A program made the position numbers and the translations under genes. A model generated the notes under the pieces. The model did no database searches and was not told the DNA's origin. It saw only the letters and a program-made list of their open reading frames with translations. Source: Nannochloropsis oceanica (lineage: Eukaryota; Sar; Eustigmatophyceae; Eustigmatales; Monodopsidaceae). From it: a stretch of 64,000 nucleotides of DNA. This document shows positions 15,956-27,093 of the stretch, piece by piece (the first letter of the stretch is position 1; every line of letters starts with the position of its first letter). The stretch lies in contig CP038128.1 of assembly GCA_004519485.1 (NCBI GenBank), positions 265,001 to 329,000 of the forward strand, given 5' to 3'.

Positions 15956-17731
15956 ATGCCCGTGGCGGCCGTGAGTGGGCGCCACTTCCTCCTCTTGACA
16001 CACGCTTGCTTTATTGTCATGCTGCTGCGCCCCCCAAGCTCGACGCTGGCGCGGACGGGGCTTGGTGGCTTTTGTATCGCATTCCGGATACCACCACTAC
16101 CGCGCGCCGCCCATGCAGCATTCTTGCCCACCATTCCCACGGGACGAAGGGATATAATGTCTCCTTCGTCTCCCATCTCCTTTTTTTCATCGACTCCTGC
16201 CTCTTCCAACGAAGAAAGTAGCCCAAGAGCCCCACCTACTGAACACACTGGCACTAGCACGACACGCCGACGTAAACGATCCAAGAGCGGCGCGGGCGGC
16301 CCTAAGCTCTCCCGTGAGTTTGTGGGCATCGCAAAGGCTACCGACACCGGTCGTTTCCGGACGTATTCAGCCGATCAATTCAAAAAAGGCGCATCTGGCT
16401 TGCCTGTCACCAGTCCTGAGCGCCCTTATTTTACTGTGTTGGGTATTGAGACGAGCTGTGATGACACTGGTGTGGCCGTGGTGAGGTCCGATGGAGTTAT
16501 CCTCGGAGAAGCCCTCGCCTCTCAATACCAGATTCATGAGCAATGGGGTGGCGTGGTACCTGGATTGGCGAGAGACGCACATGCGTCCGTGATTGATAGC
16601 ATGGTGCAGGAGGCGTTGAGCAAGGCAGGCATGGCGTCGGTAGGGGAGGTTGATGCGATAGGGGTGACTGTTGGGCCGGGGCTGGAGATATGTTTAAGGG
16701 TGGGGTGTGAGACGGCCAAGGGGCTGGCAGAGCTACATAAAAAACCATTTGTGGCCGTGCATCACTTGGAGGCGCATTGTCTGATGGCGCGATTGGGGCA
16801 GCCGGTGGTCGAGGTCGAGGAGGTGGAGGAGGGGGCGCAGGTGGAAGGGAAGAAGGTCACTTCGCCTTCGGCTTGCTTTCCTTTTCTGGCTTTGCTTGTC
16901 TCAGGGGGACATTGTATGATTCTAGAGTGTGCGAATGTGGGTCGATACCGAGTCCTTGGGGGCACATTAGACGATGCATTGGGAGAGGCATACGACAAAG
17001 CAGCGCGACTGCTGGAGGTGGGCTCGGGGGCTGCCGGTGGACCTGCCATGGAGCTTTTAGCGAGGGAAGGAGACCCTACCGCGGTACTATTACCAGTCCC
17101 TATGAAGGGAAAGAAGGATTTGAATTTTTCGTATGCCGGTTTGAAGAATGCGTTCAGAATGGCCGTTACAAGGGTGATCGAATCCCAGAGGAAGGGCGAG
17201 GGAGGGGGGGAGAAAGGGGGGAAGTTGGACCACCAGACGAAAGCGGACTTGGCGGCATCGTTTCAGAGTGTGGCAATTGAACACCTGGAGGATCGGTTGG
17301 AAAGGGCGATGAAGGAGAGTGAGGGAAGGGGGATTCGAACATTGGCGGTGGTGGGAGGAGTGGCGGCGAATCACGCGATACGGACACGACTGTGGGCCTT
17401 GTGTGAAAAGAGGAGTGTAGCGAGGATGAGGGAGGTGGAAGAGAAGAGGGCATGGGTGGAGGAAATGGAAGGTGATGGAGATGCTGCTGCTGCGGCCGCT
17501 ATTGCTGTTGCGGATAAGTTGCCTGCGTGGGAGTTGGTGGTGCCTCCGCCACGATTGTGCACAGACAATGGGGTAATGGTTGCGTGGGCGGCAATTGAGA
17601 AACTGAGATTGGGCTTCTCGGATGTCTTGCAAGGACAGGACGTGCATGCGCGGTGGCCGTTTGCCAATTTGGATAAGAGGAAAGAAGATGAGATGGAGGA
17701 GCTGGTGGAGGGAGGAGGGGGTAGGCCATGA
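15956..17731 (+). CDS. Organellar tRNA N6-threonylcarbamoyladenosine synthase (TsaD/Qri7/OSGEPL1)
   Basis: Transfers threonylcarbamoyl to A37 of ANN-decoding tRNAs. Single exon, 591 aa. The catalytic domain starts near residue 160 (TVLGIETSCDDTGVA). It has the metal-binding HLEAH motif, LLVSGGH, the GTLDDALGEAYDKAAR nucleotide region, SYAGLKNAF, and the C-terminal DNGVMVAWA metal ligand. It resembles the bacterial/organellar TsaD branch rather than cytosolic Kae1. About 160 extra N-terminal residues include a hydrophobic stretch and RAAHAAFLP, which fits a stramenopile bipartite plastid presequence (mitochondrial import is the alternative). Two Glu/Lys-rich insertions (near residues 285 and 500) are not typical of the family. 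It is the first gene of the only head-to-tail pair in the window. Confidence 0.93.
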   Translation: MPVAAVSGRHFLLLTHACFIVMLLRPPSSTLARTGLGGFCIAFRIPPLPRAAHAAFLPTIPTGRRDIMSPSSPISFFSSTPASSNEESSPRAPPTEHTGTSTTRRRKRSKSGAGGPKLSREFVGIAKATDTGRFRTYSADQFKKGASGLPVTSPERPYFTVLGIETSCDDTGVAVVRSDGVILGEALASQYQIHEQWGGVVPGLARDAHASVIDSMVQEALSKAGMASVGEVDAIGVTVGPGLEICLRVGCETAKGLAELHKKPFVAVHHLEAHCLMARLGQPVVEVEEVEEGAQVEGKKVTSPSACFPFLALLVSGGHCMILECANVGRYRVLGGTLDDALGEAYDKAARLLEVGSGAAGGPAMELLAREGDPTAVLLPVPMKGKKDLNFSYAGLKNAFRMAVTRVIESQRKGEGGGEKGGKLDHQTKADLAASFQSVAIEHLEDRLERAMKESEGRGIRTLAVVGGVAANHAIRTRLWALCEKRSVARMREVEEKRAWVEEMEGDGDAAAAAAIAVADKLPAWELVVPPPRLCTDNGVMVAWAAIEKLRLGFSDVLQGQDVHARWPFANLDKRKEDEMEELVEGGGGRP

Positions 17732-18528: not shown

Positions 18529-21500
18529 ATGTCAGACTCCGACCGTTCTGCCCGGCTCCTAGCCGTCTCTACCAACTTTCAGATGGCTGTGCGCCGGTCG
18601 CAGGAGTTGGAACGAAGTGGTACGTTTTTATGATGGATGGGCGCGATGAAAGGGAACATGGGCGTGGTGGAAGCCCTTGGGGGGAAGACAGGAGGAAGCG
18701 ACACGACGGATAGATCGATATCTGGGACCAGATCTGGTCACTTCCGCGTACAGCCTCCTCATTTGCACCTGCACACATGAGACGGGTACACGTATGCTAC
18801 CCCCCTTGACATCGTTTCTGATTGCTTTCACCCGCCGTGCTCAACGAGACATACATTCGAACTCACCTCCCTCTCTCTCCCTTTCCCCCCTTCAATCACA
18901 ACTTTAAACAGGCCAACTAAGCAGCAACCGTAGTGTGCACCTGTACGGTATCCTTATGCAGGCCACAGCCGGCGACTGCCGCGCTAGCAAACCCCCGCCT
19001 AGCTCCAGTGCCGGCCAAAGCGACGAGGGTCTAAAATGGATGGCGTGGAAAAAGAAGCAAGGCATGTCGAGAGAGCAGGCCATGGTTGCGTACATAGACC
19101 AGATGGACTTAATTGACGAAGAGCTCATGACGGGAGGCGCAGCCTTGATGGATAGCACAGGGGGAAACGCGGCGTTATACAGCAGCGATGGTCTGTATTC
19201 CTCCCAAGAGCCAGTGACAGCCAAGACGGGAGTGCTTTACAAACAACGAGATGTGTTCAAAGGGTGGAGGGCGAGGACCTTCGTACTGAAGGATAAGTTG
19301 TTGACGTATTATTTACACGATGATGACCCTGTGCCACGCAGTACTCTTATCCTGGATGGTTGCCGCGTGCAGCCGCTGAGGGACGGACATACGTACACTG
19401 TCAAGAAGGAGGGCACCGGGGAGAGCGTGCTACTATATCCATTTTCAATCACCCACCCTGATAGCAACCAGGCGTACCACCTCGCAGCGACCAGTCAGGA
19501 GGAAACGGACGAATGGATCCGAACTTTAAAAATGGCGGCAGCTGGTCCCCGCCGTGTCTCTCTGCGGAGAAAGCCCTCAGTGGACTCCCGCCTATGGCAA
19601 CAGCAGCAGCAACTGGAGGAAGGAGAAGGAGGGAGCAGACCGTCGTCATCGTTTGGTTTGCCCTTGCCGGAGGCAGGGGGGTTTCAGCCCATAGGGAATG
19701 CGGCATTGATCCCTCCAGAATTAGGTAAAAAGGTTTCACGAGCCATGCAAGCAGTGCTTGAAAATACCGAGGGCGGGAAGCAGGAAGGCTGGGAGGTGGT
19801 CTCCACGCGCTCCGACGTCCAGGTGCTAAAACGACCGGGGACGGTGACGTCTTTTAGAGGGGAAGGGAGGATTGCGGCCCACCCTGTGTCGGTATTGCTT
19901 GCTGTGATGGACTTGTCGCAGAGGCAGGCGTACGACGCTCATTTCGGTTTTGGAAGGAGGGTGAAAATGTACAATGCGCATACCTGGTTAGATTACCACC
20001 ACTACCGTGCTGTGTGGCCGACGTCGGCGCGCGATATGTACAATATAGTCCACTGGCAGGTGTTGGAGGGAGAGGGGGAGGGCGGGACCATTGTCGTGGT
20101 GGTGTTCGCGGATGAGGACCGGCACCCTGAGGAGGCGGGGTGTGTCCGGGCAGAGTGCCTCCTGGCAGGATGGGTGATTCGGCCGATTAACCCTGCTACA
20201 GGTGTTGCACCGGAACGACAGCCTTCTTCCCCTTCCTCCTCCTCGTCCTCCTCGTCCTCCTCGTCCTCCACTGACCGAGATCTTCCCCTCGAGTCCCAAG
20301 TGAGTTTCGTCCTTCAAACCGACCTCAAGGGCAATCTCCCCCACTCCGTCACCAACATGGTTTCAGAAGGCCAGCCTCTGATTATCGCTTCCTTGCGAAA
20401 ATTTCTCTTAGAGAACCAACGGACGTCCTCCGCCTCGTCCTCGTCATCCTTCGCTTCATCATCTCGACGACGACCAAGCCACTTGAGCAGTATCGGTACC
20501 GGCGCCGCTGGCGCAGCAGCAGCAGCAGCAGGAAGCGGAGTACATGGTGGTGGCTTGGGGTCAAGCGGGGGTTTAGGTGGAAAGGGTGTGATTGATTGTT
20601 ATTCCTTCAATGTGCTTTGTTACAGCAACCAGCAGGTGGAGCAAGCGATGGATCATCTCAATAGAAGGTTGTTGGCCATGGATGCCACGGCGAGCAGCAG
20701 CAGCAGCAGCAGCAGCAGCATCAACGGCAGCAATAGCAGCAGCAATAAGAGCATTGGTGCGAGATCTCTCATGCCTGCCTCCCCTGTGCATCTCCCCAGG
20801 GGGCGGTCGCTGATCAAGGGAGGGAGTGACGGAGGGAGGGGAGGAGGAGGGGGGTCATTGACTCCGGCCCGGAAGGCGGCTCATCAGCGATCCTTGACGA
20901 TGAAAGAGATTCAAAGCAGCTTAGCGCCACATATTAATGCGCAGGTGGAAGATGCAGTGTATGCAGCCCTGGAGAAAGAGGCTTCATTTCCTTTTGGGAA
21001 GGAAGGGAAGAGGAGGCGGGGTGGGGGGGATGGAGGAGTAGGAATAGGAGAGGGAGAAGGAGGTTTGAGTAATGGCGGTGGTACGCCAGTGGATGGTTGG
21101 GAGTTGTTTGATGAGCGGGAAGTGGAGGGCAGCGAGAGTAGCAGCAACAGTGGCAGCAGCAGTAGTAAGGATCGATCGTATTTGAACGAAAAAGACGCCA
21201 CAGACGTCAGTGTCTTGCAGGTGTGCTCGGAAGGGTTGATTAGACATCCGCCGGCCGCTGTTCTCAAAGCCTTGACTACTTTGGATTTGGTCAATATCTG
21301 GAGTAGCGCAGCTGAATTTTCTACACACGACGTTCTGTACAACGTGCATACATGGGTCACGTACCAGCGGCTCAAGGCCATGTTTCCCATGCCCACGAGA
21401 GATGTATGCCAATTGGTCCACTGGAGGGTGGTGGAGGAACAGGAAGGGCGTATAGTTGTGGTGGCTATGGACGACCCGAGTCACCCGGAGGAGGAGGGGT

Positions 21501-23978
21501 ATATCAGGGCGCATCAGCAGGAGCAGTGGATTTTGGATTCAGTAGGGGGCGGGACGGCTACGCGGGTCTTCTGCTTGTTCTCGCTTGACATCCAGGGGAT
21601 TATGACCAAGGCCGTGAGGAAGGAGTTGACCGATAAGCAGGCGAATGTGATCCCATCAGTGAGGAAATTCTTGGATGAGTATCTGAAGGTGGGAGGCGGT
21701 GGAGGGGCCGGAGAAGGGGGGGGGGGGAGGGGAAGAACTGGAGGGAGGCCCTCTGTTGAGGTCTGTGCAGATTTCCAACGCGGCGCTGCAGCCGTTAATG
21801 CTTGCCTGGAATAGGTGGAGCCCAAGCATGATACCCGACCGAATGCACATCTACCCAACGGCAGACGAGGTGCAAGCAGCTGTCGCGGCGCGGGATGGCC
21901 GCACGCCTTCCTCTTGCTCCCGCAGTCACCGTGGTGAGAATTGTGGGGGAGAAGGAGAAATTGGTACCCTTACCCCCCACATGGGAACCGCAAGAAATAC
22001 CGCCCTCGATCTGAGCAGGCCAGGTTTCGGTCGGCCCAGCTCTGCCCCAACCATCCCGCCCCCCCAGCAAAAAAAGGCTTTGCCTATGGCGGCCACGCCC
22101 CGATATACCCTTGCACCCTCCCCTCAGCCTTTCCCCCATTCATCCTCCTTCGTCCCCGGTCCGCTGCACCTGCAGCAGCAGCAGCAGCAGCAGCAGCCAA
22201 TGCAGCATATCGCTGGACCTCATTCATCCGGCTCTCGCTCTGCTACTTCCTCCCCCAAACCTCAGCAGCATCAGCGCCCGCCTCGGCATCGTTGGGGAGG
22301 AGGAGGAGGAGGAGGAGGAGGAGGAGGAGGAGGAGGAGGAGGTGGGTCTACGCTGCGATATCAGCAAGTTGGCAGCAGGGAAGGGGGACAGGGAGGAGGA
22401 AATGAAGGGGAGGGAGAGGAGGAGGGGGAGGAGTACGACGAGGAGGAAGAGCTACGTGGTGTGACCCCAAGTGTGCCGTCCTCCCCTGCTGGATCCATGC
22501 GTCGGTTCCCGTTAGAGTCAGCGGGAGGGACGGAGAGGAGTACTTTTACAGCCAGCCTGAATTATACCCCTCCTCGCTCCAGCCCTCATCCAGGGCGGAT
22601 CTCCACTATTAGCAGTAAAGCAGCAGCCTCTCCCTCCATCATCTTTCGAGGAGCCACACCAGCTGCTCTGCCAGCCACGGCCGAGCGTCCTTCTCCGGCG
22701 CATACCGCAGCAGCAGCAGCGCCTGCAGCTGCTGCATCACCGTCATCAGCAGCAGCACTGGCGAGCAACAATCCTTCACCCCTTTCTACTAGGTTCGCCT
22801 GGGGTGGCTCTACCCTACAATTTGCTATTTTTTTGCTGCCCGTCGTTCTGTATTACCTGGCCAGCATCAGTAGCAGCACTTCTTCCTTTATCAGCTACTT
22901 CCTCCCGTTCTTGCCGGCCTCCCTCATCACTACTACAACCATTAACATCAACAGTAGCAGCAGTATGCACCAGTTTCGTGGGTTATTGTTTGTGTTGGGC
23001 GTGTTGGTGGCTTTGCGGTATCTCGTTGCTGCACAAGCACAGGGGAGTAATCAAGTGGGAGGGGGGGAGGGTGTGCCTGCTCGACGAGTAACAGAGTGGG
23101 GGCAGGAAGGGATGAAAAATCGGGTAAATGTGCGATTTACGGTGGAGATTAAGAAGTTGAAAAGATATATCGATGCGCAACAAAGAGAGACGTGTGGAGT
23201 GGGGATCACTGTCTTGCATGTCGCAATGCGAGCCTTGGGGCTGGCGCTGCGAGAGGTGCCTGCATTGAATGGTCATCGGGTGTTTGGGGAATTCAAGCCT
23301 TCACGCACGACTGATGTGTCTTGTGAGCTAAGGTTGAGAGATGGCCGTTTTGCTCTGTTAAAGGTGGGGGAGGTGGATGTGAAATCCCTTGCAGATATCT
23401 CGAGGACGCTGTCGTTGAAATCACAGGCGTTGAGCCATGGTCGTGATGTGTTTTATAACCGGCGTTTGCTCATCTCACGGTGGTGTCCCTCATTCCTCCT
23501 TCCTTCTCTTGAAGCTTGTTTTACTGTCTTGGGGGCAGGGTTAGGATTGAGTCTGCCGTGGTTGGGCGTACGGGCCTTCCCACAGGGAGGATGTGTGGTT
23601 CTCACCTCTCCTGCTGTTACCGCTAGTAGGGGCTTCGCTTGCGAGGCTGATTTTGAAGTAACTCCTGCAGCGACGCCGAGCGCCGCGTTCCTCGCTCCTC
23701 TGGTTTTGACCATCGGAGCGATCAGTGCTGTTCCCAAGGCAGTGGGCGGGCCAAGGGGAGGGCAGCAGCGGCAGCAGCAGGAAAGGGAGGTGATTTTGTC
23801 GCCGGTGCTGAATGTGTCGATTCAGGCGCAGCTGCAGGGAGGGGCGTCGTCGTTGCAGCATGTACGGAGACTGACAGAGCTGGTTCACAAATATATGAAT
23901 GACCCGAGGTCATGCGAGGAGGACGCACTCAAGTCTGCTACGGCTGCTGTCACTGCGCCAGCAGCCGTATCTGTCTGA
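18529..23978 (+). CDS. ACBP-PH-START-START-transmembrane-acyltransferase-like giant protein
   Basis: Exons 18529-18619, 18912-21688 and 21771-23978; phases agree, 1691 aa. Domains: acyl-CoA-binding (about 8-100; LYGILMQATAGDC, then KWMAWKKKQGMSREQAMVAY); PH (about 135-238; GVLYKQRDVFKGWRARTF); START 1 (about 300-520); Ser/Gly-rich linker; START 2 (about 790-955). The last exon adds a low-complexity region, two hydrophobic helices (about 1305-1380) and a C-terminal domain (about 1400-1680) like the 2-oxoacid-dehydrogenase E2/CAT acyltransferase fold. Where E2 enzymes have the catalytic DHRxxDG, this protein reads QAQLQGG, so it is probably not catalytic. Inference: a membrane-anchored lipid or acyl-CoA transfer or sensing protein. 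The 82-nt intron at 21689-21770 explains the frame change next to a long G run. The E2-like call is the least certain part. Confidence 0.82.
22299..22343 (+). repeat. (GGA)n coding repeat
   Basis: Encodes poly-Gly inside the last exon of the ACBP giant. A CAG run encoding poly-Gln lies just upstream (22172-22195). Confidence 0.85.
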
Positions 23979-24492: not shown

Positions 24493-27093
24493 TCATCTTC
24501 CGCCTTCCCCACCATTCCCGGGCGAATGCAAAACCGCCGTCGCCGGCGACCCTGTACTAGTCAAATCCATGTGAACCTCCGCCCTCGTCACATCCTTAAC
24601 TCCCTCCACCAACACCTTCACCCTCCGGGCCACCTCCCCCGCCTCTCTCACACTCAATTCCGGGTCAATCTGCAATAAGACATCGACCGTAGGCGCCATC
24701 GATGTATAGTGAACGACAACCTTCCTCACCGCCGACACCAACGGCTCTTGTCTCGCCCATTCCGGGCCCAACAACGCCCGAACGTCTGCCTCAATCTCTG
24801 AGGGTTGTCTCAGCTCATTCGCCAGCGGACAAGGCAAGGGCTCAGTTTTGGTGCTCACCAACACTTCGCTGACGTTGGGGAAATCCCGTCGGATCCTCCA
24901 ACGGACTTGGTCTGCTACTTGCTGTGCCGCACTCGCCGATATCTCACTGTCCACCAAAATACGCAGGTCCACGAGGAGTTGGGGCCCCATGCGTCGTGCG
25001 CGGACATTGGATGTTTCTCGTACCCCTTCAACAGTGGCGGCAACGCGGTGGATTTGAGGGATGGAGTCACTTTCGACCGTGTCAGTAAGTTGGTTCATGC
25101 TGTCAAGGAAGATTTGCATGCCCGTCAGGCCGATCATGGCAGTGACCAGGATGCCTGAGGGGAAGCGGAAATGGGGTGGGGGAGGGGATAAGGAAAAAGG
25201 AAAAGCAAATAAGTGATGAGTGACTGCGAAGGTGAAGTGGCAGCGTATGGCTCAAGTAGGAAAACAACAAACCGCCTTTCCCACGTACACCTCCTCTCAC
25301 AGCCTCTCCCACCCTCCCTCCCTCCTTCCAACCTACCCGCCACCGGGTCCAGTGCTGCCAGCCCCGCCCTTGCCGCCACGATGCCTCCCAAGGCCATTAC
25401 CGATGAAATGGCATCCGAACGATGGTGCCACGCATTCGCCAGCAACACCTGGCTGTTATGCTTCAGACCTACGCTAGCCGTCACCTGATACAGTAACCTG
25501 AAGGAGGAGGGCAAGAGGGAGGAAGCAAGAAAAGAAAAGCGGAGAATGAAAGGGCAAGGAAATGAAATGAAATATCTGATTGGTATATTTCACGTCCAAC
25601 AACCAGAACAGAGTATACAACGCGCATCCACTTCCTCCGCTCCGGCGCTCTTTCCCTCCCTCCCTCCCCTCCGACTTACTCTTTCCTCCCTCCCCTCCGA
25701 CTTACTCTTTCACTACAATCGACGCCAACGCCGCACACACCGCAAGCGCCGACGGAGCCGCCGCACACGTCGATGCCATCTGTCCTCCCCTTGCAAATAA
25801 ACCCTGCATCCACGGCACAGATGATATGACCGCTGGGAAGCTCGACACGAAGGGGAAGGGCCCGAGAGAAGGGAGAAGGAGGGTGCATTGTAATTTGTCA
25901 TAGGCATGCGCAGCAATATGCCACGCCGTTAGGAGAAGCAGCGCCGAGACTCCTAATGAACCCACCGCTTCAAAACGTCCATGTCCGTAGGGGTGATCAT
26001 CATCAGGAGGCAAGGCACTCATACGCACTGCCCAGAGGGTCACCATGTCCGACACCAGATCTGACAGTGTGTGCCCTGCATCTGCTACCATGGCTGCACT
26101 CCGACCCACCACCCCGGCCGATGCCTTGATCGCAAACAATGCCAAATTCGCATATATTCCCAACCACGTAACCCTATCTGCCTCCTTCGCGCCTGCTCTC
26201 AAAATAGACACGGCGGGGCCACCTGCAGCCAAGGGGCGGTCGCTCTGCAAGAGCTGGAGGGAACGGTGCGCCCGCCAGCCGGCTGCAAGACTAGAAAGGT
26301 TTTCTCGGAGGGCTGTTAGGTAAGACTTGGTGCTTTCGACAGCGAGAAGGAAAGTAGCTACTAGCCCAAGGATACCTACGTCGGCGCTTGAGAATTTCCT
26401 CAAGCCTTTGTAGGACCGGACAGCGACCACGGCAATGGCCCCCAGGAGGACGCCGAAAATGGTTTGTTTCTTTTTTTGCAGGACCGTGATTAGGTAGGAA
26501 ACCAGGCCTTTCAAGCCGACTTTGGCTGGGGGGTGGGGGTGATCGTGGTCATGCTCGTCGTGGCCGTTAAAGTGGGAGGCGTCGCCTGACAGGCCGTGGC
26601 TAGGCGCCATGTGCATAGAGAGTGAAGTACGCGAGGGACACCTCTGCCGCCTTGCTGGGAGAGCGGCCATGAGAAGCCCATCACTTATCGAATCCTTACA
26701 CTTGCCTGCTTTTGGGGTGAAGGGGTTGAGGGTTAGAACGCCTTCACCTACTTGTGCTGCACAAAAGATGTCCTCGTGCTCGTGAATGAGGTGAGATCTC
26801 TTACACAGAAGCACCACTCTGACCCACCACCAGGGATACCTGCCACTGCAATCAAGCAAGCGATGCAGGAGTTAAAAGACTTAGAAAAAAGGCAACATCA
26901 CGCGACAAAATAGAGGTCTGTCTGCACTTCTACGTGTACACTTACCTGAGGCTGAGAGGGAGGCATACAAGGGTGCGGTAGGCAGTCTGAACGCCGTAGA
27001 AACTGAAGCGGCCATGCCAAGCACCAGGAAAACGTTCGAGCATGGCCGGCGACAGCACCTTGTCAAGCTTTGCTCATGTGGCCGTGGAGGCAT
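24493..27093 (-). CDS. Plastid-targeted cation diffusion facilitator (Zn/Fe/Mn efflux type)
   Basis: Proton-coupled divalent-metal exporter. Exons 27093-26946, 26756-25706, 25497-25337 and 25154-24493, all in phase, about 673 aa. The N-terminus has a hydrophobic stretch ending STAFRLP, an A-F junction typical of stramenopile plastid presequences. Then come a His-rich stretch (HDEHDHDHPHPP), extra helices, and the CDF core. TM2 carries HTLSD and TM5 carries HHRSD, the HxxxD pair forming the metal site. After TM6 there are two successive cytoplasmic-domain-like modules (around VDLRILVD and VDVLLQIDP) instead of the usual one. The first acceptor is ambiguous: AG at 26758-26757 or 9 nt downstream, both in frame. 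It is divergent from the CSRNP-like gene. Confidence 0.9.
25314..25330 (+). repeat. (CCCT)n tract inside a CDF intron
   Basis: Reads as (GGGA)n on the gene strand, just inside the donor of the third CDF intron (25336-25155). Confidence 0.6.

Follow-up and report, generated by a model that had tools for sequence, protein, structure and literature searches.

What might a single protein do that joins an acyl-CoA-binding domain (ACBP), a PH domain, two START domains, a pair of hydrophobic helices and the fold of an E2 acyltransferase core? The question is raised by a gene in a 64,000-nucleotide stretch of the Nannochloropsis oceanica genome (GCA_004519485.1; 29.3 Mb in 32 contigs), namely positions 265,001 to 329,000 of contig 3 (CP038128.1), hereafter the window. 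The gene occupies 18529–23978 on the + strand of the window and is predicted to encode 1691 amino acids, 986 of which lie inside domains or helices when rounded limits are used (Table 1). At the level of sequence and structure model, the chain holds ACBP, PH, START (two copies here), helices and a CAT-fold core without its catalytic histidine. Inferring function from these parts, we give about an even chance that in ochrophyte-type algae it acts as a membrane-anchored lipid-transfer protein of the PH-START kind, with an acyl-CoA binder and an inactive E2-type core built in; we go no higher because the functions are deduced from sequence and because the observations agree almost as well with a sensor or scaffold.

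The original prediction described one fused protein, and relatives recovered in protein searches (P0001 to P0014) bear this out. P0001 (1564 aa) and P0002 (1621 aa) have their starts no more than ten codons into exon 2 and continue unbroken through both START domains, the helices and the tail, while P0003 (1143 aa) is unbroken from inside the PH domain onward; all three are contiguous over the junction at 21770–21800. Their start sites, together with an insertion in the P0003 tail that resembles a read-through intron, suggest that these three are unspliced open frames. P0005 (1016 aa; EukProt, complete open reading frame) carries both ends on one predicted protein from a transcript-type record, as does P0004; the style of the P0005 record (GECG01016821) is presumably that of a transcriptome. 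All four of its Pfam families, ACBP (43.3 bits), PH (47.6), START (50.0) and 2-oxoacid_dh (76.9), exceed their cut-offs. Two adjacent genes joined by prediction, with a split near 21770–21814, would explain why the open frame of exon 2 runs no further than 21814, why exon 3 lies in a different frame and why the proposed second intron is weak; against the unbroken P0001, P0002 and P0003 and the two-ended P0005 and P0004, we find this hardly credible and have rejected it.

The lipid-related modules proposed earlier were likewise recovered by Pfam. With the exons joined, the ACBP family (PF00887) scores 59.9 bits against a cut-off of 28.3, and the PH domain scores 49.6 bits and matches the KIAA0053 PH structure 1v89 (E 4.4e-11), its basic motif K-x(8)-R-x-R being present in five of the eight proteins examined. 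START (PF01852) reaches 66.2 bits over two stretches, and each copy exceeds the cut-off separately (44.4 and 27.9 bits). START 1 is 27–38% identical to the single START of other proteins, versus 19–28% for START 2, and the four START 2 copies (window, P0001, P0002 and P0003) form one starred clade in the START tree. No second START was seen in P0004, P0005, P0006 or P0014; the forks near P0004 and P0006 are open and carry a long-branch warning, which leaves the duplication undated.

Exon 3 encodes long low-complexity linkers, then the helix pair, then the C-terminal domain. A hydropathy scan agreed with the predicted helices (scores 2.12 and 2.45), and since the pair precedes the folded domain and P0001–P0006 have aligned pairs, it is probably a membrane hairpin or anchor. 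The expected CAT fold of the C-terminal domain was also recovered, in this case by a different route: PDB sequence searches with exon 3 gave at least 30 matches up to E 1, all in the low-complexity and hydrophobic parts, and the CAT piece by itself gave no match up to E 5, so the fold was recognised solely through relatives and the predicted structure of the tail, which matches it. The corresponding Pfam family (PF00198, cut-off 23) stays below threshold in the window (14.7 bits), P0001 (17.2), P0003 (12.1), P0004 (17.2) and P0007 (18.6), is passed among the relatives scanned by P0002 (24.1) and P0005 (76.9), and gave no match in the Pfam scan of P0006, P0009, P0010 and P0014. Neither lipoyl nor subunit-binding families were found in the window protein by that scan. 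The full P0005 structure model has low confidence (mean pLDDT, the predicted local distance difference test, 55.8; pTM, the predicted template-modelling score, 0.33), and only its CAT and START part matches were used.

A claim that found no support was that the tail acts as an acyltransferase in N. oceanica. Among the window protein and P0001–P0014, the HxxxDG motif is present in P0005 only (HRYMDG at 977). In alignment A3 the catalytic histidine column holds leucine in the window, P0001, P0002, P0003, P0004, P0007, P0008, P0010 and P0011, threonine in P0006 and histidine in P0005, i.e. histidine in one of 11 proteins, a count that omits P0009 and P0012 (gaps), P0013 (glutamine, with an end resembling intron read-through) and P0014 (which stops ahead of the motif and is not in A3). 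The aspartate column holds serine in the window, P0001, P0002, P0003, P0007, P0008, P0010 and P0011, and aspartate in P0004, P0005 and P0006. Because HxxxDG is missing and the histidine column is leucine, the window tail is probably a pseudoenzyme, and the leucine shared across relatives points to a substitution fixed long ago and not to recent decay. The tails of P0009 to P0013 begin, or hold an insertion, just ahead of an LNGH stretch, pointing to an intron there in other species; the window frame is open through this stretch.

A similar domain order occurs in other ochrophyte algae. PH, START, helices and CAT follow one another in P0004 (Pinguiococcus), whose tail scores 99.6% against the window's group, and in P0006 (Seminavis, a diatom), both genera being ochrophyte stramenopiles; the second START, as noted, is not found in these distant relatives. 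The P0006 tail is assigned less firmly because it was recognised with the combined CAT profile only (96.2%, E 2.3e-9; none of 12 reversed or shuffled controls exceeded 1.9%), with no match to the P0005 tail (0.5%) or the window's group (1.7%) taken alone. P0004 and P0006 together reached only 11.4% against the E2 proteins of the N. oceanica genome, and the window tail found no match elsewhere in that genome better than E 0.02. When the seven-row alignment A1 served as query, the search retrieved P0005 itself and a single new protein, P0014, which has ACBP, PH, START and helices, stops at the first tail residues and is 52% identical to P0005 over 73%. P0005 is the only intact-motif member found, and P0014 is its nearest relative. 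Since protein searches scored the best 8000 candidates by words in common, this taxonomic spread is a lower bound. Patterns from A1 matched 11 times in viral contigs and 54 times in prokaryote genomes, none confirmed by tblastn; because they were drawn from the START stretch, these scans say nothing about the origin of the CAT tail.

Together, the modules lend themselves to a contact-site mechanism. The helix pair would sit as a hairpin in one membrane, probably the endoplasmic reticulum (ER), leaving the PH/START part and the CAT core on the same cytosolic side, and the PH domain would reach a phosphoinositide-bearing partner membrane by means of the long low-complexity linkers. The START domains could then carry lipid between the two membranes, with the ACBP binding acyl-CoA, whether as the load to be moved or as an indicator of how much acyl-CoA is available. 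The CAT core may descend from an active acyltransferase dependent on CoA, the motif of which P0005 still shows; here it would no longer transfer acyl groups and might serve as an assembly (trimer) or ligand-binding platform.

Several observations weigh against this proposal. START ligands are not readable from sequence, and strict and relaxed regular expressions found no FFAT-like motif in the window protein (a divergent one could escape them). Acyl-CoA binding by the window ACBP may be weak given the methionine at residue 46 (LYGILMQATAGD), which we take to be the position of the CoA-contacting Lys32 of bovine ACBP; with Tyr28, Lys32, Lys54 and Tyr73 assumed as contact residues, alignments read by eye show three of the four kept, residue 46 being methionine also in P0001 and P0002 and lysine in P0005 and P0014. 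The ACBP may not be universal in the family either, as Pfam finds none in P0004, P0006 or the shortened P0003, though P0003 begins inside the PH domain, the P0004 N-terminal stretch resembles the last ACBP helix by eye, and both may be shortened at the N-terminus. The motif K-x(8)-R-x-R was not seen in the PH domains of P0005 and P0014. As for the anchor, the P0004 helices fall below the hydropathy cut-off while stretches of the window CAT domain exceed it (three flagged places, one at 2.18), and the helix region has a pLDDT of about 41–70 in the structure model.

The same parts could belong to a membrane-bound sensor or scaffold, in which ACBP and START would gauge how much acyl-CoA and lipid is present, lipid-synthesis enzymes would be recruited or regulated through the dead CAT core, and no net transfer would take place. 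We regard this as a real possibility, although one less probable than transfer: PH-type and START-type domains combined with long linkers and an anchor follow the plan of contact-site transfer proteins such as CERT and the GRAM-VASt proteins. The GRAM-VASt proteins as such are treated in PMC4082322. A bolder arrangement, which we hold to be rather unlikely, is an alga-specific machine in which a mitochondrial-type E2 core was recruited to the membrane, with ACBP feeding acyl-CoA and START feeding acceptors, so that capture, transfer and acylation would take place on one chain at a contact; the P0005 lineage would have kept the activity, and in the two-START lineage of the window protein the machine would have become a regulatory pseudoenzyme.

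Activity of the tail in N. oceanica too, through other residues and with START giving the acceptor and ACBP the acyl donor, is improbable: the modelled CAT fold, the HRYMDG of P0005 and an ACBP on the same chain speak for it, but the histidine-to-leucine and aspartate-to-serine changes recur together from the window to P0011 in the eight proteins listed above for serine. More doubtful by far is a mitochondrial E2- or E3BP-like subunit of a 2-oxoacid dehydrogenase that carries unusual extensions, a reading that draws on the E2 core fold and was rejected on domain content, since the Pfam scan shows no lipoyl or subunit-binding family, ACBP, PH and START stand ahead of the core, and four other genes of the genome match the E2 family.

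Lam/GRAMD1 proteins are, we assume, the contact-site members of the GRAM-VASt proteins. The nearest working counterparts of the lipid-transfer protein favoured here are CERT and the GRAM-VASt/Lam proteins (for the latter, in part PMC4082322). CERT (STARD11), the PH-START ceramide transfer protein, likewise places PH before START on one chain, and the P0005 START matches it at E 0.003; the window protein differs in its ACBP, second START, hydrophobic helices and CAT core, and in having no match to the FFAT-like expressions. GRAM-VASt (VAD1) proteins share a PH-type domain, one or more START-like domains and a membrane helix, whereas the window protein has Pfam PH and START instead of GRAM and VASt, plus ACBP and CAT. 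EDR2 (PH-START-EDR2_C) resembles it in its PH-START part, with a CAT core in the window protein in place of EDR2_C, which finds no match. Compared with the E2 dihydrolipoyl acyltransferase core (PF00198) and the non-catalytic E3BP, the window protein shows no lipoyl or subunit-binding domain in the Pfam scan, lacks HxxxDG, and joins its core to lipid-binding modules and two hydrophobic helices. Multidomain ACBP proteins such as ACBP-ankyrin also fuse an N-terminal ACBP to other modules, with different partners.

The full architecture was not described among the full-text matches listed, nor in passages of PMC10543664 and PMC4082322, in a literature coverage that leaves out most subscription journals. 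Every module is known; what stands out is that an E2 core has been put to new use after a probable membrane anchor. This would be an unusual case of such a core outside the 2-oxoacid dehydrogenases, with an intact-motif relative at hand for comparison. In algae with secondary plastids, plastid-made fatty acids and ER-made lipids must cross several membranes, and to our knowledge many of the lipid carriers involved have yet to be named. The window protein, which unites modules for acyl-CoA binding, lipid carriage and docking with a probable anchor on one chain, is a direct candidate.

Table 1 Coordinates of the gene's exons, introns and encoded domains in the window.
Feature	Position	Strand	Details
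Exon 1	18529–18619	+	ATG start, N-terminal part of ACBP; open frame, GTACGT donor at 18620
Intron 1	18620–18911	+	292 nt, GT..CAG, 3' end 81% pyrimidine
Exon 2	18912–21688	+	Remainder of ACBP, PH, START 1, START 2 (Pfam); open frame 18908–21814
Putative intron 2 or coding Gly-rich linker	21689–21770	+	82 nt; frame slip possible in 12-G run 21716–21727
Exon 3	21771–23978	+	Low-complexity linker, two helices, CAT domain, stop TGA; open frame 21687–23978
ACBP domain	18571–19102	+	Residues 15–94, split by intron 1; Pfam
PH domain	19223–19540	+	Residues 135–240; Pfam; basic motif K-x(8)-R-x-R at residue 141
START 1	19712–20422	+	Residues 298–534; nearer to the single START of other algae
START 2	20924–21688	+	Residues 702–956; among proteins found, common to P0001, P0002 and P0003 only
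Hydrophobic helices (probable membrane hairpin)	22821–23033	+	Residues 1307–1323 and 1361–1377; hydropathy; aligned pairs in P0001–P0006
CAT-fold (E2 acyltransferase core) domain	23100–23921	+	Residues 1400–1673, without HxxxDG

Removal of intron 1 raises the ACBP match to its full score from 47.6 bits for exon 2 alone. Putative intron 2 could be excised in frame, yet its 3' end is just 33% pyrimidine, without a pyrimidine tract, when judged against intron 1, the sole other intron measured as a yardstick. It encloses 12 consecutive G, and the exon 2 and exon 3 frames would join with one G fewer or two more in this run. P0001, P0002 and P0003 have a linker at the site (ending VDISN, VEISN and VEISN, respectively), and the exon 3 frame of the window encodes SVQISN as it approaches and crosses the proposed splice site. 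Given the G run, the missing tract and the coding linker of the relatives, intron 2 is doubtful; a slip in the length of the run, in the assembly or the organism, may explain this segment equally well. The domain order is unaffected.

Ordinary START and ACBP family members exist alongside the fused gene. START matches lie at four other places (C7, C20, C8 and C17), that on C7 being an EDR2-type PH-START-EDR2_C gene and that on C20 a START gene, and ACBP matches occur on C16, adjoining an ankyrin exon (a probable ACBP-ankyrin gene), and on C25. Upstream in the window, a TsaD-family tRNA threonylcarbamoyltransferase gene (15956–17731, +; 229 bits) has an N-terminal extension of more than 100 residues by eye, which may be an organelle presequence. 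On the opposite strand, two open frames at 24493–26859 resemble exons of one cation-efflux zinc transporter, with Cation_efflux at 25702–26859 and two ZT_dimer stretches at 24493–25251.
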